Assembly: GCA_025558095.1 (NCBI GenBank) | Contig: JAIVFI010000005.1 | Span: forward strand, 806,001-870,000 | From: Hyaloraphidium curvatum | Taxonomy: Eukaryota; Monoblepharomycota; Hyaloraphidiomycetes; Hyaloraphidiales; Hyaloraphidiaceae | Direction of reading: 5' to 3' | Length of the DNA stretch: 64,000 bases | In this document: in pieces, positions 2,966 through 62,720 of the stretch | How positions within the stretch are numbered: the first letter of the stretch is position 1 | Layout of the letters: each line of letters opens with the position of its first letter | Made by a program: the position numbers and the translations under genes | The notes under the pieces: generated by a model | The model's input: only the letters and a program-made list of their open reading frames with translations | Databases searched by the model: none | What the model was told of the DNA's origin: nothing

Positions 2966-3303
2966 GCTTTGTCGGTTTGTGAGGGATGACGTGGTGGTCG
3001 CGGGCGCGCCCCGCAAGCCGCGGACGATCAGGGCCAACACTCGGACTCCGAGATGACTACTGGCTGGATCAAGATCAACTTTCTCAAGAGAACAGAAGAA
3101 GTAAAAGCAGATTTCTCCAGCGGCGAGGCTATAGCTCATGTTGGACTACGGTGGTCTTCGCGGCCTTCTGAACTCCTTCTGTACCAAGGCTGATGATCTC
3201 ACACCGTCGAGTAAGCTCGGCTGGTTTCTCAATCCGCCGCCGCAAATGCCCCATGCCGCACACGCATGCATTCGGGACAAGAGCTTTTCATCGAATGTTG
3301 TCT
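2966..3303. other. Intergenic region, no gene seen
   Basis: This 338-bp, comparatively AT-richer stretch lies between two minus-strand genes. It contains only short openings without recognisable protein and probably carries the promoter of the gene starting at 2965 and the 3' flank of the HSDL2-like gene. Confidence 0.4.
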
Positions 3304-4620
3304 TTACAGCGCCGAGCTCCGCGACCCCGCCAGCGGATCCCCCGACGCCCTCTCGAGCACCTTCCTCTGCGGCAGCCGGAACCGGTACTTCGGATCCACC
3401 CCGCAGTCCCTGAGCTCCTCGTCCCGCCGCGACGGGTCCACCTTGTACTCGGCGGGGTCGATGCCCTGCGACGCGACCACGTCGGTGTCTATCGTGAGGT
3501 TGCCCGTGTAGTCGGCCGGCTGCATGACGATGGTGTACACGGCGTCGGCCTGCACGCCCGTATGGTAGCAGTAGGGCGCCGAGGTGTCGGAGAAGCGGAA
3601 GCGGACCGCGGCTGAACGTGCGGGGCGCGGGTCACGGGCCGGATCCGGAGACGGCACCCGCACGACGCACCCGTGAAGACGAACTTGCGCGGCCACAGCC
3701 CGTTCACCGCCACCCCCGCCGCGCGCAGCTCCTCCGCGTGCCCGAGCACCTGCAGCGACATGCCCGTTTTCGCTGTCCAGTAGCCGGCGCCGATCGCGAA
3801 CGGCTCCGTCGTGATCGGCGGGCACATGGTGATCACCTTGGGGTTGCGGCCCGCGCGCGCAGAGGCCTTGAGGTGCGGGATGCAGGCCTTGGTGACCAGC
3901 CAGGTTCCCCTACAAGAACAATGAGCGCTGGGGATCCGTTCGCCTCCCGGCGCGCCGGCTTCACCTGTTGTTTATCTATGGAGGAGACCGTGAGCGCTCG
4001 GTGTGCGTCGGGTTCCCGGCGCGCCGGCCTTACCTGGTGCACCAAGTCAAATTCCTTGACGCTTAGCTGCTCGGTCTGCTGCGTGTGGAGGGCAGATGCG
4101 TTGTTGATGAGAATGTCTTGTCGAGGGGGAGGAGAGTATTCCAGGTGAGGGAGCACGGGAGGGTGCGGGAAAAGGTGAGCGAGAAGGAGCGGGAACTAGT
4201 GAGCGAGAAGTACAGAGTCGGCCCGAGCTCCGGCCCCACCGATGCCCCCGAACGCGTCCACGGCGGCCTGCACGGCCTTGAACACCTGCTCCTCGCTTCG
4301 GATGTCGCACGGCAGCCCCAGCGCCGCCGGTGCCCCCGCTGCCTTGCACTCCTCTTCCGCTGGAAGTCAGCCGCCGCAAGTCCGTGCCTCAACCCTCGAA
4401 TCCCACCGGCGGCCGAGTATATCGTTCCCGGGAGCTTCGAATGCGGGTCCGTCGTCTTTCCCGTGATCACCACGCGGGCGCCCTCCCGGGCGAGGCGGAC
4501 GGCGCAGGCGAGGCCGATGCCGCGCGTTCCGCCGGAGCTGCCGGGGGCCGCCTTAGCTCCCCGCATAACACGAGATCGCGATGGGACCAACACGAAGACG
4601 ACCTTGTCGCGGAGGGACAT
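3304..4620 (-). CDS. HSDL2-like short-chain dehydrogenase
   Basis: An SDR oxidoreductase of the hydroxysteroid dehydrogenase-like 2 type, 306 residues after splicing. Seven exons join in frame with introns at 4538-4591, 4360-4406, 4117-4239, 3976-4033, 3910-3964 and 3612-3670. The spliced protein shows the cofactor loop SGGTRGIG, GKTTDPHSKLPGTIYSAA (diagnostic for this subfamily), NNASAL, and the active-site region GYWTAKTGMS. It lacks the C-terminal SCP2 sterol-carrier domain of animal HSDL2. Exon 5 is only 11 nt (3965-3975) and restores a conserved segment between FDLVHQ and GTWLVTKACIP; its two flanking introns are related in sequence. The C-terminus SAL is not a canonical PTS1, so peroxisomal location is unproven. 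Confidence 0.85.
3946..4028 (-). repeat. Duplicated intron sequence around an 11-nt microexon
   Basis: The introns at 3976-4033 and 3910-3964 both begin right after CAG and share a palindromic core GCCGGCGCGCCGGGA (forward near 3946-3962 and 4011-4028) and an AGCGCTCA block further on. They look like two copies of one intron, with the microexon ATAAACAACAG between them. Confidence 0.65.
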
Positions 4621-4689
4621 GGCGGTACCGGAGACTATGGGCAGGGGGAGACACCGTTGAGTCAAGGGATCGACCGACGCCGCGCGGAA

Positions 4690-4697
4690 GTAAACAA
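4690..4697 (-). promoter_or_regulatory. Forkhead-like motif TTGTTTAC upstream of the HSDL2-like gene
   Basis: GTAAACAA on the plus strand, 70 bp upstream of the minus-strand start at 4620 and about 220 bp upstream of the carbonic anhydrase start, in their shared divergent promoter region. The octamer is AT-rich in a GC-rich window and recurs upstream of other genes. It matches the core recognised by forkhead factors; binding is inference. Confidence 0.35.
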
Positions 4698-4917
4698 ACG
4701 TCCGACGATCCTCCTCCGCGGATGCTTCGCCAGCATGCGCATGCAATGCAATAGCCATTGCTGGCACCACCTGGCACTTTGGCCCGGCCCAGACGCCCGA
4801 TGAGGTCCGGGATGCCGTTCACCTCTCGCGATACGCAAGGGCACAGGAACACCCCCGCCTCGGTAAACAGGCCCTGAGACTCTCTTCGTGCTCCCCGCCT
4901 CCATCGCCATTCCTTCA

Positions 4918-5833
4918 ATGTGGACCGCTGCGCTCCGGTCGGTGGCTCGGGCGGCACGTGCCGCGGCCGCCCCGCGGGCCGGCGCAGCACCGCCAGCACG
5001 GTCCCTGCTGCGGGTGCGACCTCCCACAGCACTGCACGCGCCGGTCGGGACCCCGATCGCGCTCCGGAGATTCGCGGGGACAGCCGCTCCCGCCGCCGCG
5101 GCGGAAGGGGACGAGGAAGTCCGCACGGACGTGCTGACCAAGGAGGAGCAGGCCCGGCTCACGCCCGCGGAGGTCCTTCGCCGGCTCAAAGAGGGCAATG
5201 GGACCTATGTCTCGGGTGATGTGACCTCCCGAGACCACGTCGAGCAGGTGGTTCCCTCGATTGGACGCGCCGACTGCCTGTGTGCTGACCAACAACCGAC
5301 GACGGCGAAACATTCCGATGTCCCAGGTACGCAAGGCCGCCAAAGGACAGTACCCCAAAGCCGTCGTCCTGTCCTGCCTCGACTCGAGGGTTCCCGTCGA
5401 GGACGTGTTCGACTGCGGCATTGGCGACCTCTTCGTCGCCCGCGTCGCTGGCAACTTCGCCAACACCGACATCATCGCCAGCATGGAGTTTGCCTGCAAG
5501 GTTGCGGGGGCCAAGCTGGTGCTGTGTCTCGGGCATGAGCACTGCGGTGCGGTCAAGGGAGCCATCGACAAGGTCCAGCTGGGTCTGCTCCCCAAGATGC
5601 TGGAAAACATCGAGCCCGCCGTCGAGGACGCCCTGGCACGCTCCCCGGGGACGAAAAGGACGAGCGCAGACGAGTCTTTCGTGCACCTGGTCGCGGAGCG
5701 CAACGTGGCGCTGGCCGTGGACAAGATCCGCCGCGAAAGCGAGGTCCTGCGTGCGCTCGAAGCCGAGGGGAGCATCATGATCGTCGGTGCCATGTACGAC
5801 ATGGACACGGCTGAAGTCGTCTTTATGGAGTAG
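4918..5833 (+). CDS. Beta-class carbonic anhydrase, mitochondrial
   Basis: Converts CO2 to bicarbonate. The mature protein is 278 residues from two exons, 4918-5247 and 5327-5833, separated by a 79-nt intron with a GTGCTGAC branch site. The zinc ligands and catalytic Asp-Arg pair are in CLDSRVPVED, and HEHCG supplies the other ligands; GNFAN and the C-terminal VGAMYDMDTAEVVF are also typical. The N-terminus from the ATG at 4918 is rich in Ala and Arg with no acidic residues (MWTAALRSVARAARAAAAPRAG), a classic mitochondrial presequence. An upstream in-frame opening at 4888 was not used because it lacks ATG. It diverges from the HSDL2-like gene. Confidence 0.93.
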
Positions 5834-5980
5834 AAGGCGGCGGCATTGGAAAGCGCTGAGTGTGCATGGATCGGCGGGCGGAGGCACAAGGCGGAGGCGA
5901 CAATAGACAAACCTCCCCACCGTCCAACCCCAAATCATCAACGCATCGTTAGCCGACCGGGCTGCGCCCTCTCCTTCTCA

Positions 5981-7063
5981 ATGGCCGAGCGGGCATCGCC
6001 CCATTTCGTGGACGTGGACCTTACGCCCACGCTCGTGGACGCGCTACTCCGCCCGCACCTCTATGAGCGCTGCGTCGCGGTGGAGCGGATGCCCGTGGGC
6101 TGGAACAACCTCGCCGCGCGCGTGTTGCTGGAAGACCCCTCGGGGGTGCGGACGGACCGCCTGTTGCGGCTGTCCAAGGCCACCTGGCCAAGGGAGAAGA
6201 TCGAGAACGAGGTCGCCGCGCTCGAGGTCGCGCGCGCGATCGACTTCGGCGGGGTCGCGGTGCCCCAAATCCTCGCCCACGGCTTTGCGGGCGAGCATGG
6301 CGACTTTCATTGGCTGCTCATGGACTTTCTCCCGGGGCGCAACCTCGAGGGCGTGTGGAGGACACTCTCACTTGAAGACAAGGAGCGCGTGCTCGACGGC
6401 GTCGCCGGCATCGTCCGCGGGCTGCGCTCCGTCCGCTTCCCCACCATCGGAGGGTGGAAGATGGCGCCCTCGGGGCCGGGGATCGGGCCGTACTTTGACG
6501 GCGGGTTCGGGCCCTATGCCCGGGAAGCGGAATACCTCCTCGACCGCCTCGAGAAGCGGCTCTCCCGCGTCCTGTCATCCCCCGACGCGGCCTTGGCGGC
6601 GCTCGGCGCCCATGTCTCTTTGATGCTCCCCCGTATCCGTGCGGCCGTGGAGGCACTCCCCCACTCCGACACGGTCCTCTTCCACGGGGACCTCGCCTTC
6701 CGCAACATGCTCGTCGTCGGCGCCCCCGGGCACGCCCGTGTCTCCGCCTTGCTGGACTGGGAGTGGGCCGGCGCGATGCCGGCGTGGTGCGACTTTGCCG
6801 GCGCGGAGATGCTCGAGCCGGACGGCAGCCCCGCGGACGAGGACGAGGCCGCGCGGATCAGGGAGGGGCTCAAGGGGAGGGAGCTCGGGGTGTACGAAGC
6901 CGCGCCGGGGTTCCGGACGCGGGAGGCGGTGGAGGGGCTTTCGGACGCGCTGACGCTGTGGCGCCTGGATTCGGGCATGGACACGGCGGAGGAGGCCGTG
7001 GGACGGATCCAGGACAAGCTCGATGCGTTGCTAAACGGCATGGCTTCTTCTACTGTACTCTAA
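5981..7063 (+). CDS. APH-family phosphotransferase, fungal type
   Basis: Intronless, 360 residues. It has the protein-kinase-like fold of aminoglycoside/choline phosphotransferases: an N-lobe around ARVLLEDPSGVRTDRLLRLS, the Brenner motif HGDLAFRNML (catalytic Asp and Asn) at about residue 233, and LDWEWAGAMPAWCD as the metal-binding counterpart of DFG. Fungi carry many such proteins of unknown small-molecule substrate; antibiotic resistance should not be assumed. The start is the ATG at 5981 just before the conserved region. It follows the carbonic anhydrase in tandem with a gap of about 150 bp. Confidence 0.85.
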   Translation: MAERASPHFVDVDLTPTLVDALLRPHLYERCVAVERMPVGWNNLAARVLLEDPSGVRTDRLLRLSKATWPREKIENEVAALEVARAIDFGGVAVPQILAHGFAGEHGDFHWLLMDFLPGRNLEGVWRTLSLEDKERVLDGVAGIVRGLRSVRFPTIGGWKMAPSGPGIGPYFDGGFGPYAREAEYLLDRLEKRLSRVLSSPDAALAALGAHVSLMLPRIRAAVEALPHSDTVLFHGDLAFRNMLVVGAPGHARVSALLDWEWAGAMPAWCDFAGAEMLEPDGSPADEDEAARIREGLKGRELGVYEAAPGFRTREAVEGLSDALTLWRLDSGMDTAEEAVGRIQDKLDALLNGMASSTVL

Positions 7064-40189: not shown

Positions 40190-41599
40190 ATGTCGGTCCT
40201 GACGGTCTTTGAGAACGACCGCGTCTCCGTCGGACCGGGCGCGTCACAACTCACGGCGGCGGACCGCGACGCGCTTCTCGCCCTCTCCGAGCGGTGCGAC
40301 GGATTCTGCACCGCGGAGGAGGGTGGCGTGCGGCTGGAGGGCCACTGCGGGCTGGTCGCGCTGCCGTCGGGACGCCTGCTCGAGGTGCTGCCAAAGGTGC
40401 TGGACCGCAGGGGACGAGGGGTGGGACGGGGATTCGCGGAGGACTTTCTGGGGCACACGGAGCAGGCAATTGGGGAGCAAGCGGTGGGGCAGCTGGATAG
40501 CACCTCGCCGGCGTCTGAGTTTGTCGGCATGCTCGTGCGGATGCTCGGCCTCGCCGGCGACGACTTTGCTATGTACCGCATGGATTCCTCCGTCGGCCAC
40601 GTATCGACGCCGCTTACAGGCGGCCTGCTCGAGGTCTTTGTCTCGGCCTTCCTTTCGCACGTGCACATCCTCGCCCTGGGGGGGCTGCACCAGGACTACC
40701 GCACCGTCGAGGGCGACCTCGGCGCCGTGCGCGGGCGGATCCAGCTGCAGCGCCAGGCGACCACCCTGTGGAACAGGAAGGACGCCGTTGCCTGCTCGTA
40801 CGACGAGCGGTCGACCGACCACGCCCTGAACCGCGTGGTCAAGGCGGCGTTGGTGGTCGTGTCGCGGTTCGGTCTGCCGCCGGATCAGGCGAACCGTTGC
40901 CGGCAGCTGCTCCTGCTGTTTCGAGACGTGGACCTGGCCGGCTTCGACCCCCTGCGGACGCTGCGCACGCCGCGGTTCGACCGCCAATCCGCCCGCTACC
41001 GCCCCGCCGTCGAATGGGCCGCCCGCATTCTCCGCTTCGAATCCCCCGCCGCCCTCGCCGGCCACCTCCCCGCCCCCGAGATTCTGTTCGACATGCCCCT
41101 CCTCTTCGAATCCGCGGTCGGCGGCATCCTTTCCCGCCGCGCCACGGAGCGCGGCCTCCACGCGGACCTGCAGCGGGCCGGGTTCCTCGTGACCCTCCTC
41201 GGCGACGAAAACACGGGCATGGTCCGCATGCGCCCGGACTACATCCTCCGCGACCGGGAGGGAAAGGTGCTCGCGGTCGGCGACGCCAAGTGGAAGCCGC
41301 TGGACCTTCTCCAAGGCAACCTGCTCCCGCGCAACAAGGACGTGTACCAGCTCTCGGCCTACGCGTACGGTTTCGACGCCGACGCGGCCATCATCTACCC
41401 GTGGTTCGCGGACTACGACCGGCGCAGGATGAGGGAGACGACGCTGGTGCTGCCGGCCACGGTGCCGGGCAGGCCGCCGAGGAAGATCACCATCATCCTG
41501 CTGGACGTGCGGAGGGACGACTTGGGGGTGGTGATGCACGATCCGAGGGCGGCGTCGCTGTTTGTGGATCTGCTGCTGGGTCCCCAGGAGAGCGTGTAG
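40190..41599 (+). CDS. McrC-like nuclease subunit of a McrBC-type system
   Basis: 469 residues, no clear intron. It has the McrC layout: an N-terminal region with LEGHCGLVALPSGRLLEVLP (like the GRLEILPKI motif), a middle region with GDLGAVRGRIQLQRQ, and a C-terminal PD-(D/E)xK nuclease with RPDYILRD ... VLAVGDAKWKPL (41232-41296) followed by DVYQLSAYAYGFDADAAIIYP. In bacteria McrC binds McrB, activates its GTPase and cuts DNA at modified cytosines. The catalytic Asp and DxK residues are intact. Start ATG at 40190; the frame is open earlier without family resemblance. A McrB-type GTPase is encoded 18 kb away at 59689-62720. Confidence 0.85.
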   Translation: MSVLTVFENDRVSVGPGASQLTAADRDALLALSERCDGFCTAEEGGVRLEGHCGLVALPSGRLLEVLPKVLDRRGRGVGRGFAEDFLGHTEQAIGEQAVGQLDSTSPASEFVGMLVRMLGLAGDDFAMYRMDSSVGHVSTPLTGGLLEVFVSAFLSHVHILALGGLHQDYRTVEGDLGAVRGRIQLQRQATTLWNRKDAVACSYDERSTDHALNRVVKAALVVVSRFGLPPDQANRCRQLLLLFRDVDLAGFDPLRTLRTPRFDRQSARYRPAVEWAARILRFESPAALAGHLPAPEILFDMPLLFESAVGGILSRRATERGLHADLQRAGFLVTLLGDENTGMVRMRPDYILRDREGKVLAVGDAKWKPLDLLQGNLLPRNKDVYQLSAYAYGFDADAAIIYPWFADYDRRRMRETTLVLPATVPGRPPRKITIILLDVRRDDLGVVMHDPRAASLFVDLLLGPQESV

Positions 41600-41655: not shown

Positions 41656-42165
41656 TCATTCCGCACCCCTCTTCGCGATGAAGGCAGACGACCACCGCGG
41701 CCTCGCGACTTTGAGTCCATCCAACAGCCGAAGGAGGCGCTGGCTTGGAGCTAAAGTGTGGTCCCTGGGATCCGAGAGCAATGCAACGATCTCTTTATGT
41801 TCCCGCCGGAGCCATTCCACGACCATCTCGTCCCAAGAGAACCGGTCCAGGTGCCGCACAAAGTCCAGTGCGAGGTCCGCCGATGCATCCCTGTCCTGGA
41901 GGAAAGAGGAAAGGAACTCGCGCACCTCGTCGAGGTCGAAGCCGAAGGATGCGACGCGGTTCTCGCGGCCGGTCCTGAAATCCGAGTCGCGGATCGGTGT
42001 TGTGACGAACCGGTGGAACGTCTGAAAAGTTCCTTGTTGGCAGCGTCCCGCAGCGAACGGGATAAGGAAGCAGAGGTCGGCCAGGGAAAGGCGGTCCGCG
42101 ACGCGGGCGAACACCTCGGGCGGCAGGGACCTCCAGGCCGGGCGGCGGCGGGGCGACCATCGCAT
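41656..42165 (-). CDS. F-box-like family member 3, short
   Basis: 169 residues from the ATG at 42165. It carries an F-box-like start (SLPPEVFARVADRLSLADLC) and the family C-terminal block (LALDFVRHLDRFSWDEMVVE ... VARPRWSSAFIAK) seen at 17972 and 19292, with a shortened middle. Convergent with McrC, 57 bp between stops. SCF adaptor role is inferred from the F-box only. Confidence 0.6.
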   Translation of the reverse strand: MRWSPRRRPAWRSLPPEVFARVADRLSLADLCFLIPFAAGRCQQGTFQTFHRFVTTPIRDSDFRTGRENRVASFGFDLDEVREFLSSFLQDRDASADLALDFVRHLDRFSWDEMVVEWLRREHKEIVALLSDPRDHTLAPSQRLLRLLDGLKVARPRWSSAFIAKRGAE

Positions 42166-42247
42166 CAGAATACATCGAACAACACCCCTTCAGTGGTACG
42201 CGGAAAGTTTCAATTTGAGAGCGATAGAGGACGTTGAACTGCGAAGG

Positions 42248-47295: not shown

Positions 47296-47417
47296 AGGAG
47301 TGGATTCGGGCGTGATTTATTCAGTTTCGCTGTAACATGTTCATCTGGCCCGTGTATTGATGTGTCGTCGACAGGGTCGCCCGTCCCGTTGTCCGACAGC
47401 TTTCGCTGTTTGACAGG

Positions 47418-48860
47418 ATGTCTTCCGACGCCGTCCCGCCCACCGCTTGCCCGTCGGCTCTTCCGTTTGAGGTCATCGACTGCATCCTGGGCTTCCTGAG
47501 CGACGACCGGCGCGCGCTGCTCGCGTGCGTGCGCATCCGGGTTCTGCACGATTCTGCGGCGCTTCACCTGTGGAAGCGCGTGGAGATTCCCAAACCGACG
47601 ATGATGGAGCCACTGGAGCCCGCGCACAAGCATGCCATGGAGATCCTCCGGCGCCCGGTCCCGCGGCGCCCGGGCGAGAGGCGGGTTGCGGGGAGGGCCA
47701 TCGAAGGCCCCCGCACGCGCAAGAGCGGCGGCCGGCCGTACGCGCACTACGTCCGCTCGCTGGAGATCCGCGCCGGGTATCCCGAGATACGCACGACGGA
47801 CTTGTCTGACCTGCTGCGGAACTGCGCCGGAAGGAGGCTCGAGTCGCTTGCCTTTTCCGCGGACGAGGAGCAGTTTCCCCGGTGGAGGGACGCTATCGAG
47901 TCGGCGCCAGACCTCTTCGGCCAGCTCACGGAGCTCAAACTGTTCAAGTTGGACAGAACGTGGACCGGGCTGCGGGACTGGCTACAGCAGTTCTGCGGGC
48001 TCCGGTCCCTGCTGGTGGAGCACCCGACTTCTCAAGCTCTGCAGGCAGTCAGAGAAGCATTTGCAGCTTGCAAGACTCTGGAAAGACTGGCCATCTGGGG
48101 TCTCGTCACGGGTGCGTTGAACTTGGCGGAGCTGGTGGGTGGCGATGGGCATCGGTTGAGGAAGCTGGATTTGGCGTATCTCCCTGCTTTGGAGTCTCTC
48201 AACCTACGGGAGTTCTGCCATACCACGGACTGGCCAGGATTCCTGCCTTGCATTCCAGAAAGCCTGACTTCGCTCGAGCTTCATTGGCGGTACAACGCCC
48301 AAGACGCGGAGATTGCAAAGCTTTTCGTGCAGCGCTTTCGCGGGCTGCGCCATCTGTACCTCGAGATCCCCTTCGATCAAAGCTTCCTCGACAAAAGCAT
48401 CGCGTCTCTCACGCAGCTGCGCAAGCTGGAGCTCGTTCACACCGGGTACGCGGAAGAGCCGCCTTCGCTTCCTCTGAAGGCACTCGCGGGGTGTGCAAAG
48501 ACGCTCGAGATGCTGCGTACTCGCGGTCTCCGCATCTCGGTCTCCGGCCCGCCGCTGCCCGGTTTTCCCGCCGTCACGGACCTCGATCTCGACATACCCT
48601 GGCAGTATGCGAGAATGGACTTGTTCAACATGTTCACCCGGCCGCCGCGCTTCCCGCGCGTCAGGAGGCTGTGGATGCGATGGCTCGATCACTGGGCCTA
48701 CATCGGAGCCCAGACCGACAGGATCGAACGCGCCGTCGCCACGCTGCCGCAGCTCAACACGGTCTACGTGGCTGAGTCGGCTCCCACCGAGATGCTGGCA
48801 GACCTGAAGACGGCCTTCCCGACGATCGCGTTCGCCAAGGCGCGGCGCCATCGCCGCTGA
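47418..48860 (+). CDS. F-box and leucine-rich-repeat protein
   Basis: Intronless, 480 residues. An F-box at residues 14-45 (ALPFEVIDCILGFLSDDRRA) is followed by irregular LRRs: RSLEIRAGYPEIRTTDLSDL, LESLAFSADEEQFPRW, LTELKLFKLDRTW, LRKLDLAYLPALESLNLRE, SLTSLELHWRYNAQD, LRHLYLEIPF. It is the standard plan of SCF substrate receptors in fungi. It differs from the F-box-like family at 17972/19292/41656. Substrate unknown. It follows the T-box gene on the same strand with a gap of about 120 bp. Confidence 0.8.
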   Translation: MSSDAVPPTACPSALPFEVIDCILGFLSDDRRALLACVRIRVLHDSAALHLWKRVEIPKPTMMEPLEPAHKHAMEILRRPVPRRPGERRVAGRAIEGPRTRKSGGRPYAHYVRSLEIRAGYPEIRTTDLSDLLRNCAGRRLESLAFSADEEQFPRWRDAIESAPDLFGQLTELKLFKLDRTWTGLRDWLQQFCGLRSLLVEHPTSQALQAVREAFAACKTLERLAIWGLVTGALNLAELVGGDGHRLRKLDLAYLPALESLNLREFCHTTDWPGFLPCIPESLTSLELHWRYNAQDAEIAKLFVQRFRGLRHLYLEIPFDQSFLDKSIASLTQLRKLELVHTGYAEEPPSLPLKALAGCAKTLEMLRTRGLRISVSGPPLPGFPAVTDLDLDIPWQYARMDLFNMFTRPPRFPRVRRLWMRWLDHWAYIGAQTDRIERAVATLPQLNTVYVAESAPTEMLADLKTAFPTIAFAKARRHRR

Positions 48861-54601: not shown

Positions 54602-54691
54602 CCGTCGGCTCCATTAAAACTTATCGAATCTTGAGCGTGCTTATTGAATGGAGCAGCGGATGTGGTCGAGCAGCGAAGCTGGGGCAAGGAT

Positions 54692-56221
54692 ATGGACGCC
54701 AATTGGCCACAAGGCACTCCAAAATCTCCGCTCCAAATCCCTCCGGCGAATTCGGCGACCGCTCGCTCGACATCCGCCGCAATGCAGCTCGTTTCCACGC
54801 GGCTCTCCGCGGCGCAGCTCGACGAGGCCCGCGGGATCCTCGCCGGCGTGTCGGAGCCGCCGCCGCCGGCCGCCGCCGAGCCCCGCGCCGAGCGCGCCGA
54901 CGCGCGGCCGCCGACGTTCGAGGCGTTTGCGCGCATCCGGCCGTTTTCGCCCGGCGAGGCGCGCGAGTGGAATTCCGCGCTGCCGCGGGGGGGCGGCTGC
55001 CTGCCGGGCTTCGCGGCCACCTTTCCGCCCGAATCGCGGACCGCCGACGTGTTTAAACGCGCCCTGGAGCCACACGTCGCGGCGGCGCTGGCGGGCGGCG
55101 CCGTCACCGCGTTCTGCCACGGCCACACCGGCGCCGGCAAGACGCACACGGCGCTCGGCGCGCCCGGCGACCCGGGGCTGTTCGAGCTCGCCGCCTCCGC
55201 CCTGCTGGCCGGCCTCGCCCCCGGGCTGGCGCTGCACGCGCGGTTCCTCGAGCTGTACGGCGCCGCGGCGTTCGACCTGCTGGACGCGCGCAAGCCGGTG
55301 CACCTCCGCGAGGCGCGCGACGGCTCGCTGCGCGTGCGGGGCGAAACCAGGCTGCTGGGCGACGGGCGCGTGGCGGTGCTCTCGCAGCGGCGCGAGGCCG
55401 TGCGCACGGGGGCGGACGCGGCGCGGGTGCTGGCGGCCGGCTGCGCGCACCGCTCCGCCGGGGCGTCGTCGGTGCACGACCGGTCCTCGCGGTCGCACGC
55501 GGTGCTGGAGCTCGAGGTGGTCAGCGAGGAGCTCGTGCGGGCGCGCGATGCCGTCGCCGAGGCCGAGGCGGTCGAGGTGCAGGCGGGCAAGGCCGCCGCC
55601 GACGGGACCATGGCGTTCTGGGCCGGCGGGCTGCTGGCCTTCGGGGGCGCCGCCGGCCACCGCACCGCGGCGCCCTCGTGCGACGCCGACGGCACCGATC
55701 CCGCGGCGTGGCTGGCTTCCCTGCGCGCCGCCGCATCCATCGCCTGCACCGCCTCCCGCATCGCCCTCGCCGCCCAGCAGTCCCACGACGCCGCCCGCGC
55801 CCGCGAAGCCGCCCTCCTCTCGTCCCCGCGCCCCGGCGCCCCGGCCGTCGGCGGCAAGATCACCCTCGTCGACCTCGCCGGCGCCGACCGGGACCACCGC
55901 ACCGTGGGGACCGACACGACGCCCAGGGAGCGCGCCGAGTCCGCGGCCATCAACCGCAGCCTGATGGCCGTGCGCGCGTGCATCCGCGCGCTCGCGACGG
56001 GGGAGGGCAGGCCGCCGTTCAGGGACGCGCCGCTGGCGAGGGTGCTCGCGCCGGCGCTGCTGGGGACGGGCGCGGCGACGGTGGTGGTGGCGTGCGTGTC
56101 GCCGTGCGGGAGCCGGGCGAGGGAGACGCGGGGGACGCTCGAGTACGCGAGGATGGCGGCGGGGGCGGCGGAGAAGGGGAGGGCCGGGAAGGCGGGGGGC
56201 ATGGGGGCGAGGGAGATGTGA
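54692..56221 (+). CDS. Compact, divergent kinesin motor protein
   Basis: Intronless, 509 residues from the ATG at 54692 (54782 is an alternative; the upstream TTG is ignored). Motor features in order: FARIRPFSPGE (beta 1), the P-loop GHTGAGKTHTALG, FLELYGAAAFDLLD, switch I SSRSHAVLELE, and switch II ITLVDLAGAD with NRSLMAVRACIRAL after it. An insert of about 110 residues lies between switch I and II, and there is almost no neck, coiled coil or tail after the motor. The set of catalytic motifs is complete, so ATPase activity is plausible, but it cannot dimerise through a normal stalk. Subfamily not assignable. Confidence 0.82.
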   Translation: MDANWPQGTPKSPLQIPPANSATARSTSAAMQLVSTRLSAAQLDEARGILAGVSEPPPPAAAEPRAERADARPPTFEAFARIRPFSPGEAREWNSALPRGGGCLPGFAATFPPESRTADVFKRALEPHVAAALAGGAVTAFCHGHTGAGKTHTALGAPGDPGLFELAASALLAGLAPGLALHARFLELYGAAAFDLLDARKPVHLREARDGSLRVRGETRLLGDGRVAVLSQRREAVRTGADAARVLAAGCAHRSAGASSVHDRSSRSHAVLELEVVSEELVRARDAVAEAEAVEVQAGKAAADGTMAFWAGGLLAFGGAAGHRTAAPSCDADGTDPAAWLASLRAAASIACTASRIALAAQQSHDAARAREAALLSSPRPGAPAVGGKITLVDLAGADRDHRTVGTDTTPRERAESAAINRSLMAVRACIRALATGEGRPPFRDAPLARVLAPALLGTGAATVVVACVSPCGSRARETRGTLEYARMAAGAAEKGRAGKAGGMGAREM

Positions 56222-58212: not shown

Positions 58213-59601
58213 TCACACCGTTCCTTGCCCCGCGGTATCCGCGTCGGTCTGCGCTGGTTCCAAAGGCGCCTGTTCCTCCTGGTCCTCGACCATTTGGAGG
58301 TATCGCTCGAGGCCGTCGGGGTCGTCGGCGAACAGGTCGGCGCAGTCCGCGTCATCCAGCATCCTGACCAGGCGGGCGCCCCGCATGATTGTTTCCATGC
58401 TATCGGGTTCGTCCAGTCCCATGTGCAGAGCATCCGTCCATCTTTCCTCCCAGTTCATGCACGGGCGTTCGGAGAGGCGGCGTAGGCCGTCGACGAAGGC
58501 GCGGAATCCGGCTTCGGATTGGGAGCGCGAAAGCCGCAGGTGTTCGACATGCAGGGATTGCAGCGAGCCGGGAAACCGGAGCGTCGCAAGATCGTTCACG
58601 CTGATGAGGCCAATGAACCATCGGCGCAGGCCCCGCATCCGTCCGATGACACCAAGAACATAACTCCAGTCCCCCATGAATCGCACCCCGTAGTCCCCTC
58701 TGCAGTCGAGCTCCACAGGCCGGAAGTCCTCGTGATCCGTGAGGTACTCCAGGAGCCTGTCATCGCAAAGAGCCCAGCGCTTCCATTTCCTCACGATGGG
58801 CATGATTTCTGCCGCGTATTCTCGTGTCTGGGGGTCGGTAAAGTGGTCTGGCAGCGCCAGCCAGAAGCTCTCCTCGTGCCGCCACGGAAGACCCTGTCGA
58901 AGGTCCTTAGGAGCATCGGGGGAACGTAGCCATGGACGTCTAGCGTCTTCAGGGCGGGGCCCGAGCGAAACGAAAAGGGATGATGTTCCGGGTTCGGGAC
59001 GTCTTCGCACGGGAGCTCCAGTGTGAGGTGCTCCAAATGGAGGAACCCGCGCTCAAGAAGAAGCCTCAACTCCAAACTAGTGCTGATGGTGACAGACAGG
59101 CGTCTGATGTTGGTGAAGCTGTGGAGCATTCGCGGGAGGAAGCCGTAAAGAATGCCGGTCGCGTCCACGTTTCGGACGAAGGATGCCCCCGATCCTTAGG
59201 CGAGTTTCCATAAGTCCACGGGGTACTCCGACCGGCTTTTGAACCGCAGAGGCCAGCATTCTGAATACAGAACGGGCGACAGCAGCGCCTGGCATCAGCG
59301 CGACATGAGGGACATCTCGAACAGGGTCGTGTCGAAACGGGCGAAAGAGCTCGGCGATGCGAAGGAGGAGCTCCGGCGGCAACCGCGGCCCGTCGTCGCG
59401 CTCATGCAATTCTCCCGAGCCCGCAGCATCGGTCTCGGGCGGGAAACCGTGGCCTAGCTCGCGAACCGCGGCCCGCAGCCGCTCGATCTCGTGTTCGAGG
59501 ACCGCGTTGCGCAAGCGGAGCGCGTCCAGCTCCCGAACCGCGTTCTCGAGCAGTTGCGAGAGGGCAATAGGTTCCATAGGTACGATTCCTGTTTCCGTCA
59601 T
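58213..59601 (-). CDS. F-box protein with coiled coil, probably disrupted
   Basis: From the ATG at 59601 (59577 also possible) it encodes a coiled coil (LENAVRELDALRLRNAVLEH) and an F-box (GPRLPPELLLRIAELFR). The rest of the protein is spread over two further frames: GFLPRMLHSFTNIRRLSVTI ... HLEHLTLELPCEDVP (LRR-like) and LPWRHEESFWLALPDHFTDP to the stop at 58213. A 46-nt GT...AG intron could join the last two. Between the F-box and LRR parts, the frame with SEYPVDLWKLA hits a TAA, so either an unusual intron, a sequencing error or a real nonsense change is present there (about 59185-59260). Confidence 0.55.
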
Positions 59602-59688
59602 ACTTCGTTCGGCGAAGGGGGAAGGAAGGAAATGGGGATGCCCGTCCCTCGAGCGCACGATTCGTGGCAATCATCTCCTTGTTCAAGC

Positions 59689-62600
59689 CTACTCGTACAG
59701 TCCTCTGAACGTATCAGCCGTCCACACATCCGCATCCGTCATCGAGTGCTTCTCAACGTCCCTCGCCGGGCCGAAAGTTCCGCCGCGCGCGGCAGCCGGC
59801 AGCGGCCCGCCCCTCGCAGGAAACAGGTCCGCGGGCCTCACGGACGTCGTCCTCACGAAGGGCGGAGAGCCTGCGGTGTGCAGCACGGCGGCAACCTTGC
59901 CCGTATCGTCGAAAAAGTACTCGCGCAGCAGGGGGATGATCTTGTCCTTGAACGCCGCGCGCAGGTCGTCGAGCGACTCGACCCCGGGGAAGTACGAGTG
60001 TCCGATGGCGTGGTCCCGGTCCAGGAAGAACTCGACGCGGTCGTTGAGGGCGCGCAGCACGCGGGACAGGTCGATCCCGTCCACCTCGCGGGGAAGGAGG
60101 GATTCGTCCGGCCTGATCTCCACAAAGGCGAACCGGCGCCGGAGAGCAATGTCGAGCAGCGCAATGGAGCGGTCGGTCGAGTTCATGGAGCCGAACAGGT
60201 CCACGTTGGGCGGCACCGAAAAGCTCCCGCTGCAGCCTGGGAGCCGGATCCCCACGCCGCGCTTATCGGGTTCGATGAGGGTCAGGACCTCGCCAAACAC
60301 CTTGCCGACGTTGGCACGGTTGATCTCGTCCACGAAAAGAGCGTACCGGTTCCTCTTGTCCCGGCGTGCGCGCTCGCAGAGCCGCATGAAGACGCCCGGC
60401 GTCATCTCAAAGTGAGAAGAGGTCGACCCGTCCGGATTCTCGAAGAGAACCGGGCGCAACCCCACGATAAAGTCCTCGTACGAGAAAGAAGGGTGAAAGG
60501 TGACAAACTCGTAATGGTCGGAGTAATCGCGCATTAGTTCCAGGAGCTTCCGCGTCTTACCGGTACCAGGAGGGCCGTAAAACACCTTGAGCTGCGGAGA
60601 CGCCACCTGCTCTTCAGGCTCGTCCTTGACAGCCTCACCGGCCGGCCCGGCAAGTACCAAAGCGAGCTGGTCCGCCTCGCGATCTTCGTCAAGGTCCCCG
60701 ATCCCGATCCGCCGCCTCTTGGCCGGCGTCCGGCGGTCCCCTTCTGCTGCCCGCTTCCGTGCCTCCGAAGCAGTTCCATCGCTGCTCCCGGCCTCGGCCT
60801 CGGGCTCAGGCAGGACGGGCGCCTCTGGTTCGGGTTCCGGTTCCGGGTCCAGTGCAGGCGGCCGGAGCAGCTCCTCCATTTCGGTCCTCTTTTCCCACAC
60901 CGCCCAGTCCAGCGCCGTTCTGCCCTTGGAATCCGGCACGATCAAATCCACTTTCTCCTTCGCCTCGACGAGGAGCCTGACGATGTCCAGCCTGTTCATC
61001 TGGACCGCGAGGAGGAGGCCGGTTTTGCCGTCCTTGTCCTTGGCGTTAAAATCGATGCGCTCGGCGGCGGCTTGGGAGGACAAGAAGTAGGAAACGACGC
61101 TCGCCTTGCCGACAACACACGCGTTTTGGAATCCGGTCCTTTTGGCCTTGTCCACGGCGTCGAGGTTGGCCACCTTTCGCGGATCTTCCGCGAGATACTT
61201 GACGAGATCGATCTTGCCTTCGAAGCACGCGCCACCAAAGACCGAGCGCCCGGTGTTGGTACCGACCGTGTACTTGGCATCCGCCATCTTCTGCCCCTCG
61301 CGCGACTCCAGCAGCACGTCCAGCAGAGTCCACTTGCCGGCCTGGGCGGCGATCTGGAACGCAGTCATGCCATCGATGTCGGCGGCATGGCAGTCGACGT
61401 TGTCGCTTTCTAGCAGCTGCCTGACGGCCATGTACTTTTCCGCCTCGCAGGCAAGGAGGAAAGCCGTCGCGCTCCTGCGGTTTGCGCGGACGTCGGGGTC
61501 CACGGCAGGGTTTTGCAGCATCAACGCAATCGCGGCGTTGTTGCCCTTCCGGCAGGCGTACATGAAGGCACTGCGGCCTTCCAGGTCCACAGCATTGGGA
61601 TCGAGCCTGTCGGTGTAGCGGAGCAGGACAGCAATTACGCGCGTGTGGCCCTCCGACGCAGCATGGTGAAGTCCGGTCCAGCCGGAAGCGTCCAAAATCG
61701 TCGGGTCCACCGCACCGTTGGAGTCCTCCATGAGCCGCTTGACCACATCCGGATGGTCGTAACGGCAGGCGAGAAGGAAGGCGGTGGAACCGTTCTCGTC
61801 CACCATGTTGCAGGTCGCGCGGGCCCTTTCGTCGGCCAGGAAAAGGTCAACAATTCGCGCCTCGCCACGCGAGCAGGCGAACATAAACGCTGTTAAGCCC
61901 TCTGCGTCCGCAGAAGCAATGTCCGTACGGTCATCTGCAAAAAGAAGGCGGACGATGTCGGCGAAACCGTGCCGGGCAGCATAGGAGAGCACGTTGTCGT
62001 CGTAGGAATCCCGCTGGTTCACGTCGACCCGCCGCTGGGGCTCGTCCAGGAGCATCTTGAAGATATCGGTCCGATGCTCGACGCAAGCGGACATCAGAGG
62101 CGTCACGCCTTTGTGGTCCGCGGCGTTCAAATCTGCGCCGCCGTGGGCCAGCATGGCGCGAAGCGCGCCGACACGATTGTTGTGCACCGCAAGGTACAGC
62201 GCCGTCCGGTTCATGTCGTCCTGCGCGTCCACTTCCAAGTCTGCCCGCGCTAGCAGAGACTCGACGATGAGCTCGGCGTCGCCGTTCACAGCAGCAATCA
62301 TGAGGGCGTCATGCCGTGAGCCGTACGGACGTTGACGTCCAAGTTGGGCTCCATGACCACCAGGAGCTTGACAACGGCCGCCTGGCCCTTTGCAATGGCC
62401 CTCAGCAGTCCTTCCGTGGCCGCGGCGCCCATGTCGTCAAGAAGCTTCTCCGTCAGAACATGGCGAACAAAGTTCGTATCGCCGCGTGAGCAAGCCTCGC
62501 AAAAGGCATCCGCGGCCACTGTTCCGGGTGTGCGTCGCAACGTCACGACAACAGGCGGCGCGGACCGAGGGGGAGGCGGGAGCGGAGCAGGTGGGAGCGG

Positions 62601-62720
62601 ATGTCGGGGAGCCTGAGCAGCGCGGGCGCGCTGAACAGGTTTCCGCTGGGGAGTTGTCCGTGCCGGAGCCTTTTTGCTCTTGGCTTTGCCAGCTGCGCCT
62701 CCATCGCCGCCCTCCGACAT
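59689..62720 (-). CDS. Ankyrin-repeat McrB-like AAA+ GTPase fusion
   Basis: About 1010 residues. A basic Pro/Lys N-terminus is followed by roughly 13-14 ankyrin repeats (for example DHKGVTPLMSACVEHRTDIF, DASGWTGLHHAASEGHTRVI), an acidic Pro-Glu linker, a bipartite basic stretch KRAAEGDRRTPAKRRR near residue 660, then the McrB-type motor: Walker A FYGPPGTGKT near 715, FHPSFSYEDFIVGLRP, Walker B LFVDEINRANVGKVFGE near 790, the McrB signature GSMNSTDRSIALLDIALRRR, and the C-terminal lid. The usual McrB N-terminal DNA-binding domain is replaced by ankyrins. One base appears missing at about 62305: the first frame ends HGMTPS while the second begins LMIAAVNGDAEL. No introns were found. Confidence 0.85.

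Follow-up and report, generated by a model that had tools for sequence, protein, structure and literature searches.

McrB-type motors with ankyrin or leucine-rich repeats and linked McrC genes in the genome of Hyaloraphidium curvatum

The window analyzed here is a stretch of 64,000 nucleotides from Hyaloraphidium curvatum (assembly GCA_025558095.1, contig JAIVFI010000005.1, positions 806,001 to 870,000 of the forward strand). It encodes a McrB-type AAA+ GTPase fused to ankyrin repeats and, on the opposite strand, a McrC protein. The fusion had been recognized in an original prediction made from the sequence of the window; it is real, but that account was incomplete, as three McrBC systems were detected in this genome and the fusion belongs to only one of them. 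In McrBC systems, a reader binds modified DNA, a GTPase ring moves the DNA and McrC cuts it, as outlined in the available parts of PMC11090510 and PMC7680126. The interpretation favored here, which is given an even chance, is that whole McrBC systems from bacteria were domesticated, with the reader replaced by protein-binding repeats, and that they are probably defensive. The genome sampled (G000) comprises 31.9 Mb in 55 contigs, in which the window is C5:806001-870000. The three systems are designated by their contigs as C5, C1, and C10.

The ankyrin-McrB protein and the McrC of the window

The following features of the two C5 genes were recognized (positions in the window, strand, description).

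59689..62301, minus: ankyrin-McrB open reading frame (ORF), 870 amino acids; about 14 ankyrin repeats, a low-confidence linker with a stretch resembling a nuclear localization signal (NLS), a McrB AAA+ GTPase and a low-confidence tail
62298..62720, minus: upstream ORF of 140 amino acids, out of frame with the one above, with a basic N-terminus and one or two ankyrin-like repeats
60850..62301, minus: ankyrin-repeat array, from Pfam matches and matches elsewhere in the genome
60709..60756, minus: bipartite NLS-like stretch KRAAEGDRRTPAKRRR (KR, 10 residues, KRRR), a motif reading
59692..60630, minus: McrB-type AAA+ GTPase module with Walker A/B, MNxxDRS and arginine-finger region
60553-60576, minus: Walker A, GPPGTGKT, located by motif
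60310-60336, minus: Walker B, FVDEINRAN, located by motif
60166-60186, minus: MNSTDRS (MNxxDRS signature), located by motif
60130-60144, minus: LRRRF, arginine-finger region, located by motif
40190..41599, plus: McrC, 469 amino acids, single open frame; McrC fold and PD-(D/E)xK nuclease; PF10117
40982..40984, plus: McrC Arg265, aligned with Arg263 of Thermococcus gammatolerans McrC (TgMcrC)
41237..41290, plus: McrC nuclease motif, Asp350 (41237-41239), Asp365 and Lys367 (41282-41290), invariant in the 28 aligned sequences

In the 870-residue ORF, ankyrin families of Pfam cover most of residues 1–480 (Ank_2, E = 3.9e-66) and AAA_5 covers residues 574–724 (E = 4e-13); about 14 repeats were counted by eye. 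Residues 482–566, which link the repeats to the motor and contain KRAAEGDRRTPAKRRR, are predicted with low confidence, and most of the McrB motor has a predicted local distance difference test score (pLDDT) above 90 in the AlphaFold model. The motor signatures, the 13 to 14 repeats and the bipartite NLS-like stretch named in the original prediction were all located. The fusion had been placed at 59689–62720, and the fusion ORF does lie at 59689–62301. The whole interval, however, is not a single frame: the frame changes at about 62298–62301, and the first 140 amino acids (62298–62720) are in the other frame, which had been overlooked. Judged by eye, the ankyrin-like repeat pattern is continuous over this junction. 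An intron was considered as the cause of the switch and rejected, because the repeat runs through the junction without a gap; the switch is either a genuine frame change or a sequencing error.

Apart from itself, the array has 102 matches in the genome, all of them weaker, with the best at 39% identity over 360 residues, and it is therefore native in kind. Names of Legionella effectors were also returned for ankyrin-McrB by NCBIfam; these were rejected, as they rest on ankyrin repeats only, with scores far under the cut-offs.

The motor of ankyrin-McrB belongs to the McrB lineage. Walker A, Walker B and MNxxDRS (NxxD) are present in its AAA+ domain, in agreement with the McrB signature given in the accessible text of PMC7680126 and PMC11090510. 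A profile built from the genome's three motors was compared with PDB; the best matches were T. gammatolerans McrB (E = 1.5e-54) and Escherichia coli McrB (E = 1.8e-50), and the next family was Cdc48 (E = 5.3e-07). The top Foldseek matches of the ankyrin-McrB model were likewise McrB chains (6ut5_C, E = 8.6e-14, 31% identity). NCBIfam McrB PRK11331 matched with an E-value of 3.4e-33, but the score of 115 bits is far below the cut-off of 637, and the match therefore indicates kin, not an equivalog.

Kinship to dynein or midasin, the outcome that had been named beforehand as contrary to a McrB assignment, was rejected. In a quick tree of 47 rows, four dynein/midasin-like domains encoded by the genome separate from every McrB row, including those of the fungus (quick-tree support 96). 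Two of these outgroup rows are PF12774 dynein places (L018 and L021); the other two (L008 and L015) are called midasin-like solely because a run of AAA_5 units lies on the ORF of each. The other McrB trees carry no outgroup. Moreover, Pfam recognizes one AAA unit in ankyrin-McrB and not the tandem units of dynein and midasin. The profile search, the structural matches and this tree thus agree with the original prediction.

The product of 40190–41599, which had been named in the original prediction as a partner for pull-down, proved to be a McrC. It matches PF10117 (E = 1.4e-44, Pfam), and its predicted structure (pLDDT 80.5) matches TgMcrC (6ut7_G, E = 2.9e-19, Foldseek). Together with 27 of 38 bacterial McrCs that were collected, it makes up an alignment of 28 sequences, in all of which Asp350, Asp365, Lys367, Asp384 and Gln387 are invariant, and Arg265 is near-invariant. 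Asp350, Asp365 and Lys367 align with Asp340, Asp354 and Lys356 of TgMcrC. The available text of PMC7680126 describes the roles of these TgMcrC nuclease residues and the stimulation of the McrB GTPase by Arg263. The McrC fold, the PD-(D/E)xK active site and the stimulating Arg/Lys are all present in the window McrC. From the stop codon of ankyrin-McrB to this gene there are 18,090 bases, and the two genes lie on opposite strands.

Two further McrB-McrC pairs and their bacterial kinship

Three McrB-type motors (all four candidates scored) and three McrC genes (all three candidates scored; PF10117 E = 3.0e-44, 9.9e-21 and 2.5e-18) were found in the genome by searches that may miss intron-split copies. 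Every motor shares its contig with a McrC. Unlike the C5 genes, those on C10 and C1 are arranged head to head:

C10:312541-314949, minus: motor, 803 amino acids, head to head with McrC (loci L002 and L030 for the pair)
C10:315108-316562, plus: McrC, PF10117
C1:1304323-1305582, minus: McrC, PF10117 (loci L027 and L028, C1:1304323-1308062)
C1:1306767-1308062, plus: motor, head to head with McrC

Leucine-rich repeats (LRRs) precede the AAA domain of the C10 motor, so that a eukaryotic-type repeat is present in at least one other McrB motor of the genome. In Pfam, LRR_6 exceeded its cut-off of 23.4 with 24.6 bits and LRR_1 its cut-off of 20.6 with 21.6 (for the whole protein, E = 2.2e-05 and 1.6e-04). 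At E = 1e-3, nothing else in the genome matches the C10 LRR region. A canonical GT-AG intron is predicted in the C10 motor gene, and its removal puts an upstream exon in frame. The first exon of C1 contains a KR...RKIQR stretch and has no Pfam match; a 42-base tandem duplication lies upstream of the C1 motor. Both McrCs retain Arg in the stimulating column and the PD..DxK residues. An ORF neighboring the C10 pair (C10:309495-310805) resembles a forkhead factor by eye.

Identity is 61% between the C1 and C10 motors and 33–37% between these and the C5 motor. Between C1 and C10, fourfold silent sites are saturated (0.70–0.75 different), so that any ratio of nonsynonymous to synonymous change would rest on a saturated denominator and no rate is quoted. 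The frames are nevertheless open over 311 and 410 compared codons with 62% and 44% identity, and both copies have therefore long been retained. Both motors share the Walker A variant GPPGTSKT, carried by three of 107 rows; the sole non-fungal row with it is L075 from Cellulophaga (5128-6900).

At least 42 bacterial McrB loci were collected. Matches at E = 1e-20 or better were obtained in 65 of 398 genomes in the phylum of Kurthia and 39 of 398 in that of Roseibium, from each of which at most 30 places were taken, so that the bacterial sample is partial. Among the matches listed, McrC adjoins McrB on the same strand within 500 bases at 38 of the 42 bacterial loci; the remaining four include L077 and L079, where the motor is covered only in part. 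The original prediction that ankyrins replace the bacterial reader agrees with the relatives, which carry other N-termini at this place: L130, a close relative of the C5 motor, has an EVE domain before its motor (E = 3e-7, above the cut-off), and L138 has a sub-threshold one. No ankyrin-array match was found at any of the 107 bacterial or viral loci, some of which extend no further than about 1.5 kb to either side. The viral matches listed include at least one distant McrB locus (L080, 29% identity). On this contig from a viral collection, two McrB-like genes stand in tandem (3232-5193 and 5200-6963), and no McrC match was found in the stretch fetched.

For the phylogenetic analyses, rows L077 and L079 were left out of all trees, and L145 and L153 were left out for lack of a Walker A pattern match or a length below 180 residues. 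L063, L068 and L075 were left out of the 42-, 104- and 82-row McrB trees and the 38-row joined tree; they were kept in the 47-row tree, and their McrCs in the 41-row McrC tree. Two L080 rows were excluded from the 47-row tree by the Walker A pattern.

In the 104-row quick McrB tree, the C5 motor forms a group with six bacterial rows, among them L130 and L138 (quick-tree support 96), and it lies inside a seven-row set in the careful 82-row tree (99/97 support). The C1 and C10 motors fall away from it, a broad split that recurs in the McrC tree. In the trees, the motor and the McrC of C5 both lie in a broad region of Pseudomonadota, Bacillota and Bacteroidota, and the McrCs of C1 and C10 fall elsewhere, each with its own motor. 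A single clade for the three systems was rejected with McrB (42 rows, p = 0.00074), McrC (41 rows, p = 0.0051) and McrB and McrC joined (38 rows, p = 0.0026). It was also rejected in the careful 82-row McrB tree (p = 0.0141), a test chosen after the 104-row result and run after removal of 22 more rows (near-copies, long rows and two viral rows), with 82 of 107 left. As four of five tests reject a single origin, at least two acquisitions of McrBC from bacteria are likely on these alignments, though not proven. The direction of transfer would be from bacteria to the fungus.

Proposed working and alternative explanations

Under the favored interpretation, complete McrB-McrC systems would have passed from bacteria to the fungus, most probably on two or more occasions. 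The modified-DNA reader ahead of the motor would have been lost, with ankyrins substituted for it in C5 and LRRs in C10. The repeats may hold a protein partner or sense a protein of an intruder. The AAA+ modules would assemble into a hexameric, GTP-driven ring, and the McrC encoded 18 kb away would dock on it, stimulate GTP hydrolysis through its arginine and provide the nuclease. The ring would then feed DNA to the nuclease, the target being marked by the partner in place of a modified base. Such a system would most probably serve to defend the cell against foreign DNA, and might do so in the nucleus. Ankyrins as a rule bind proteins; because the residues of both the ring and the nuclease are preserved and no reader is recognized on the fusion protein, the most economical proposal is a ring that a protein directs or switches. 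Ten matches to the cytosine-methyltransferase family PF00145 were found in the genome, so that a reader of 5-methylcytosine could endanger the host if its DNA is methylated. Among these PF00145 places are C12:523184, C12:548189, C4:762134, C4:158154 and C31:108515.

Several observations weigh against this interpretation. The pairing of the C5 motor with the window McrC is suggested by the phylogeny and by no nearer McrC having been found, but the genes are 18 kb apart on opposite strands. Their nearest rows also differ: Kurthia L042 for the motor, and for the McrC a weak fork (86/52) with L053, L066 and L078. In the joined McrB and McrC tree, C5 is unresolved within a 21-row set, and one clade for the three systems was not rejected in the 104-row quick McrB tree (p = 0.367). 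The LRR-like part upstream of the C1 motor is fragmented and under every Pfam cut-off (E = 0.06), with an unsure gene model. The frame switch near 62300 may be a mark of decay, and the surroundings hold nothing pointing to defense as such.

The separation of the C5 genes, together with the long low-confidence linker from the repeats to the motor, could also be expected of a motor co-opted without use of the nuclease, as a GTP-driven scaffold or remodelling ring, with the McrCs serving the other two motors or acting as activators. Such a path has a parallel within the McrB family, to which PcdA belongs. PcdA of Staphylococcus aureus was coopted from a phage restriction system and serves cell division, according to the accessible part of PMC10602043. 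The window McrC, however, retains its nuclease residues and lies in the same broad part of the trees as the C5 motor, whereas the other McrCs lie elsewhere with their own motors; co-option of the motor alone is thus regarded as unlikely. Immune receptors of fungi and animals are built from a repeat domain, a ring NTPase and an effector, and the repeats might sense a trigger upon which the nuclease destroys the DNA of its own cell instead of that of the invader, in abortive defense or self/non-self recognition. This suicide sensor, resembling the nucleotide-binding leucine-rich-repeat receptors (NLRs), is considered quite unlikely, as no STAND or NACHT domain reaches the Pfam cut-off in the motors of this genome.

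Drift without function after a chance fusion of bacterial genes to repeats would account for the frame switch in ankyrin-McrB and the broken-up LRR part in C1. The GC content at third codon positions also fits this explanation, being lower in the C1 and C10 genes (0.59–0.69) than in the C5 pair (0.80 and 0.89). Decay is nonetheless judged improbable: all three motors and all three McrCs are open over their conserved regions with catalytic motifs present, and C1 and C10 retain 62% and 44% identity although their silent sites are saturated. The bacterial kinship of the motors could in principle reflect contamination of the assembly. This is nearly excluded by contigs of 0.8–1.6 Mb with three separate sites, the kinesin gene in the window, the fused repeat of a kind abundant in the genome and the predicted intron in the C10 gene.

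Relation to known systems and the host genome

The domesticated McrBC proposed here shares with the Type IV systems of E. coli K-12 and T. gammatolerans the GTPase motifs of McrB, the arginine and PD-(D/E)xK residues of McrC, and both folds. It differs in its location in a fungus-like nuclear genome, in the ankyrins in front, and in the partner gene 18 kb away without an operon; the C1 and C10 pairs, being head to head, do not form operons either. Pfam recognized only ankyrin and AAA families in the 870-residue ORF and no DUF3578, EVE or YTH, a reader on another gene not having been sought. The proteins therefore have every sequence and structure feature of McrB and McrC that was tested, but by these features the system does not count as a modification-dependent Type IV system, since no reader is recognized on the fusion protein and there is no operon. 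As far as the sequence tells, the fungal system would work like McrBC and be aimed by something else.

The EVE-McrB fusions of bacteria are close to the ankyrin motor, whose nearest relatives include the EVE-bearing L130; EVE reads modified bases, as stated in the accessible text of PMC7641849, and the fungal protein has ankyrins in the same place. The CoCoNuT branch of McrBC shares a McrB-like GTPase, altered front-end domains and a McrC-like partner. As described in the available part of PMC11090510, CoCoNuTs have coiled coils and NxD, whereas the fungal protein has ankyrins and NSTD, which is NxxD. Eukaryotic sequences were excluded from that analysis, which notes that McrC homologs had not been reported alongside those of McrB in animals. 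A comparable path is that of amoebal TIR proteins, transferred from bacterial defense, for which known regulatory domains were not found at the locus in the accessible text of a preprint (PMC13142454). Among the titles and abstract openings listed from the open-licence literature, neither a eukaryotic McrB-McrC pair nor an ankyrin-McrB fusion was found, which is weak evidence of absence.

NLR and other STAND (signal transduction ATPases with numerous domains) receptors with ankyrins or LRRs share the fusion of a repeat sensor to a ring-forming NTPase. In contrast to them, the fungal protein has a McrB-type GTPase with N-terminal repeats and a separate nuclease, and no STAND family (NACHT or NB-ARC) is above the cut-off in the motors. 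It is conceivable, if doubtful, that these systems constitute a third class of eukaryotic immune receptors that combine repeats with an NTPase. In that case, one fungal lineage would have acquired McrBC at least twice and refitted it each time with a protein-sensing repeat, ankyrin or LRR, the output being a GTP-powered nuclease aimed by protein recognition. Parts of eukaryotic immunity derive from bacterial defense, but restriction enzymes are not known to be among them. The substitution of protein-binding repeats for the DNA reader suggests a bacterial defense system rebuilt into a eukaryotic sensor. McrB-McrC pairs refitted with ankyrins and LRRs in a fungus would show a restriction system made into a protein-gated nuclease, a case in which the dangerous part, modified-DNA reading in a possibly self-methylating host, was removed and the motor and nuclease were kept. 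They make possible a direct test of what the repeats bind and whether binding switches on DNA cutting.

The host is assigned to fungi because of its kinesin, dynein, chitin synthase and Zn2Cys6 matches. A kinesin-like ORF lies in the window at 54644-56221 on the plus strand (PF00225, E = 1e-47, two stretches). Chitin synthase has 13 matches, in several pieces, at four loci (C18, C6, C29 and C39). Zn2Cys6 has 96 matches in the genome, whereas 14 prokaryotic genomes used as controls have none. PF12774 located just three dynein heavy chains (C38, C4 and C16), which are few for a flagellated organism and possibly reflect loss of the flagellum.

Beside or between the McrC and ankyrin-McrB genes lie ORFs at 41659-42189 (minus), 47361-48857 (plus), 58216-59052 (minus) and 59080-59670 (minus). 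Pfam gave no match in five neighboring ORFs, and none of those listed reaches E = 0.01; some look F-box/LRR-like by eye, such as LPPELLLRIAELF at 59080-59670. Elsewhere in the assembly, Zn2Cys6 matches recur at a spacing of 5191 bases on C40 (80236, 85427 and 90618), and small contigs carry matches scoring equal to those on large ones (C1/C52, C33/C53 and C10/C51); these are either copies in tandem or alternative haplotypes present in the assembly.

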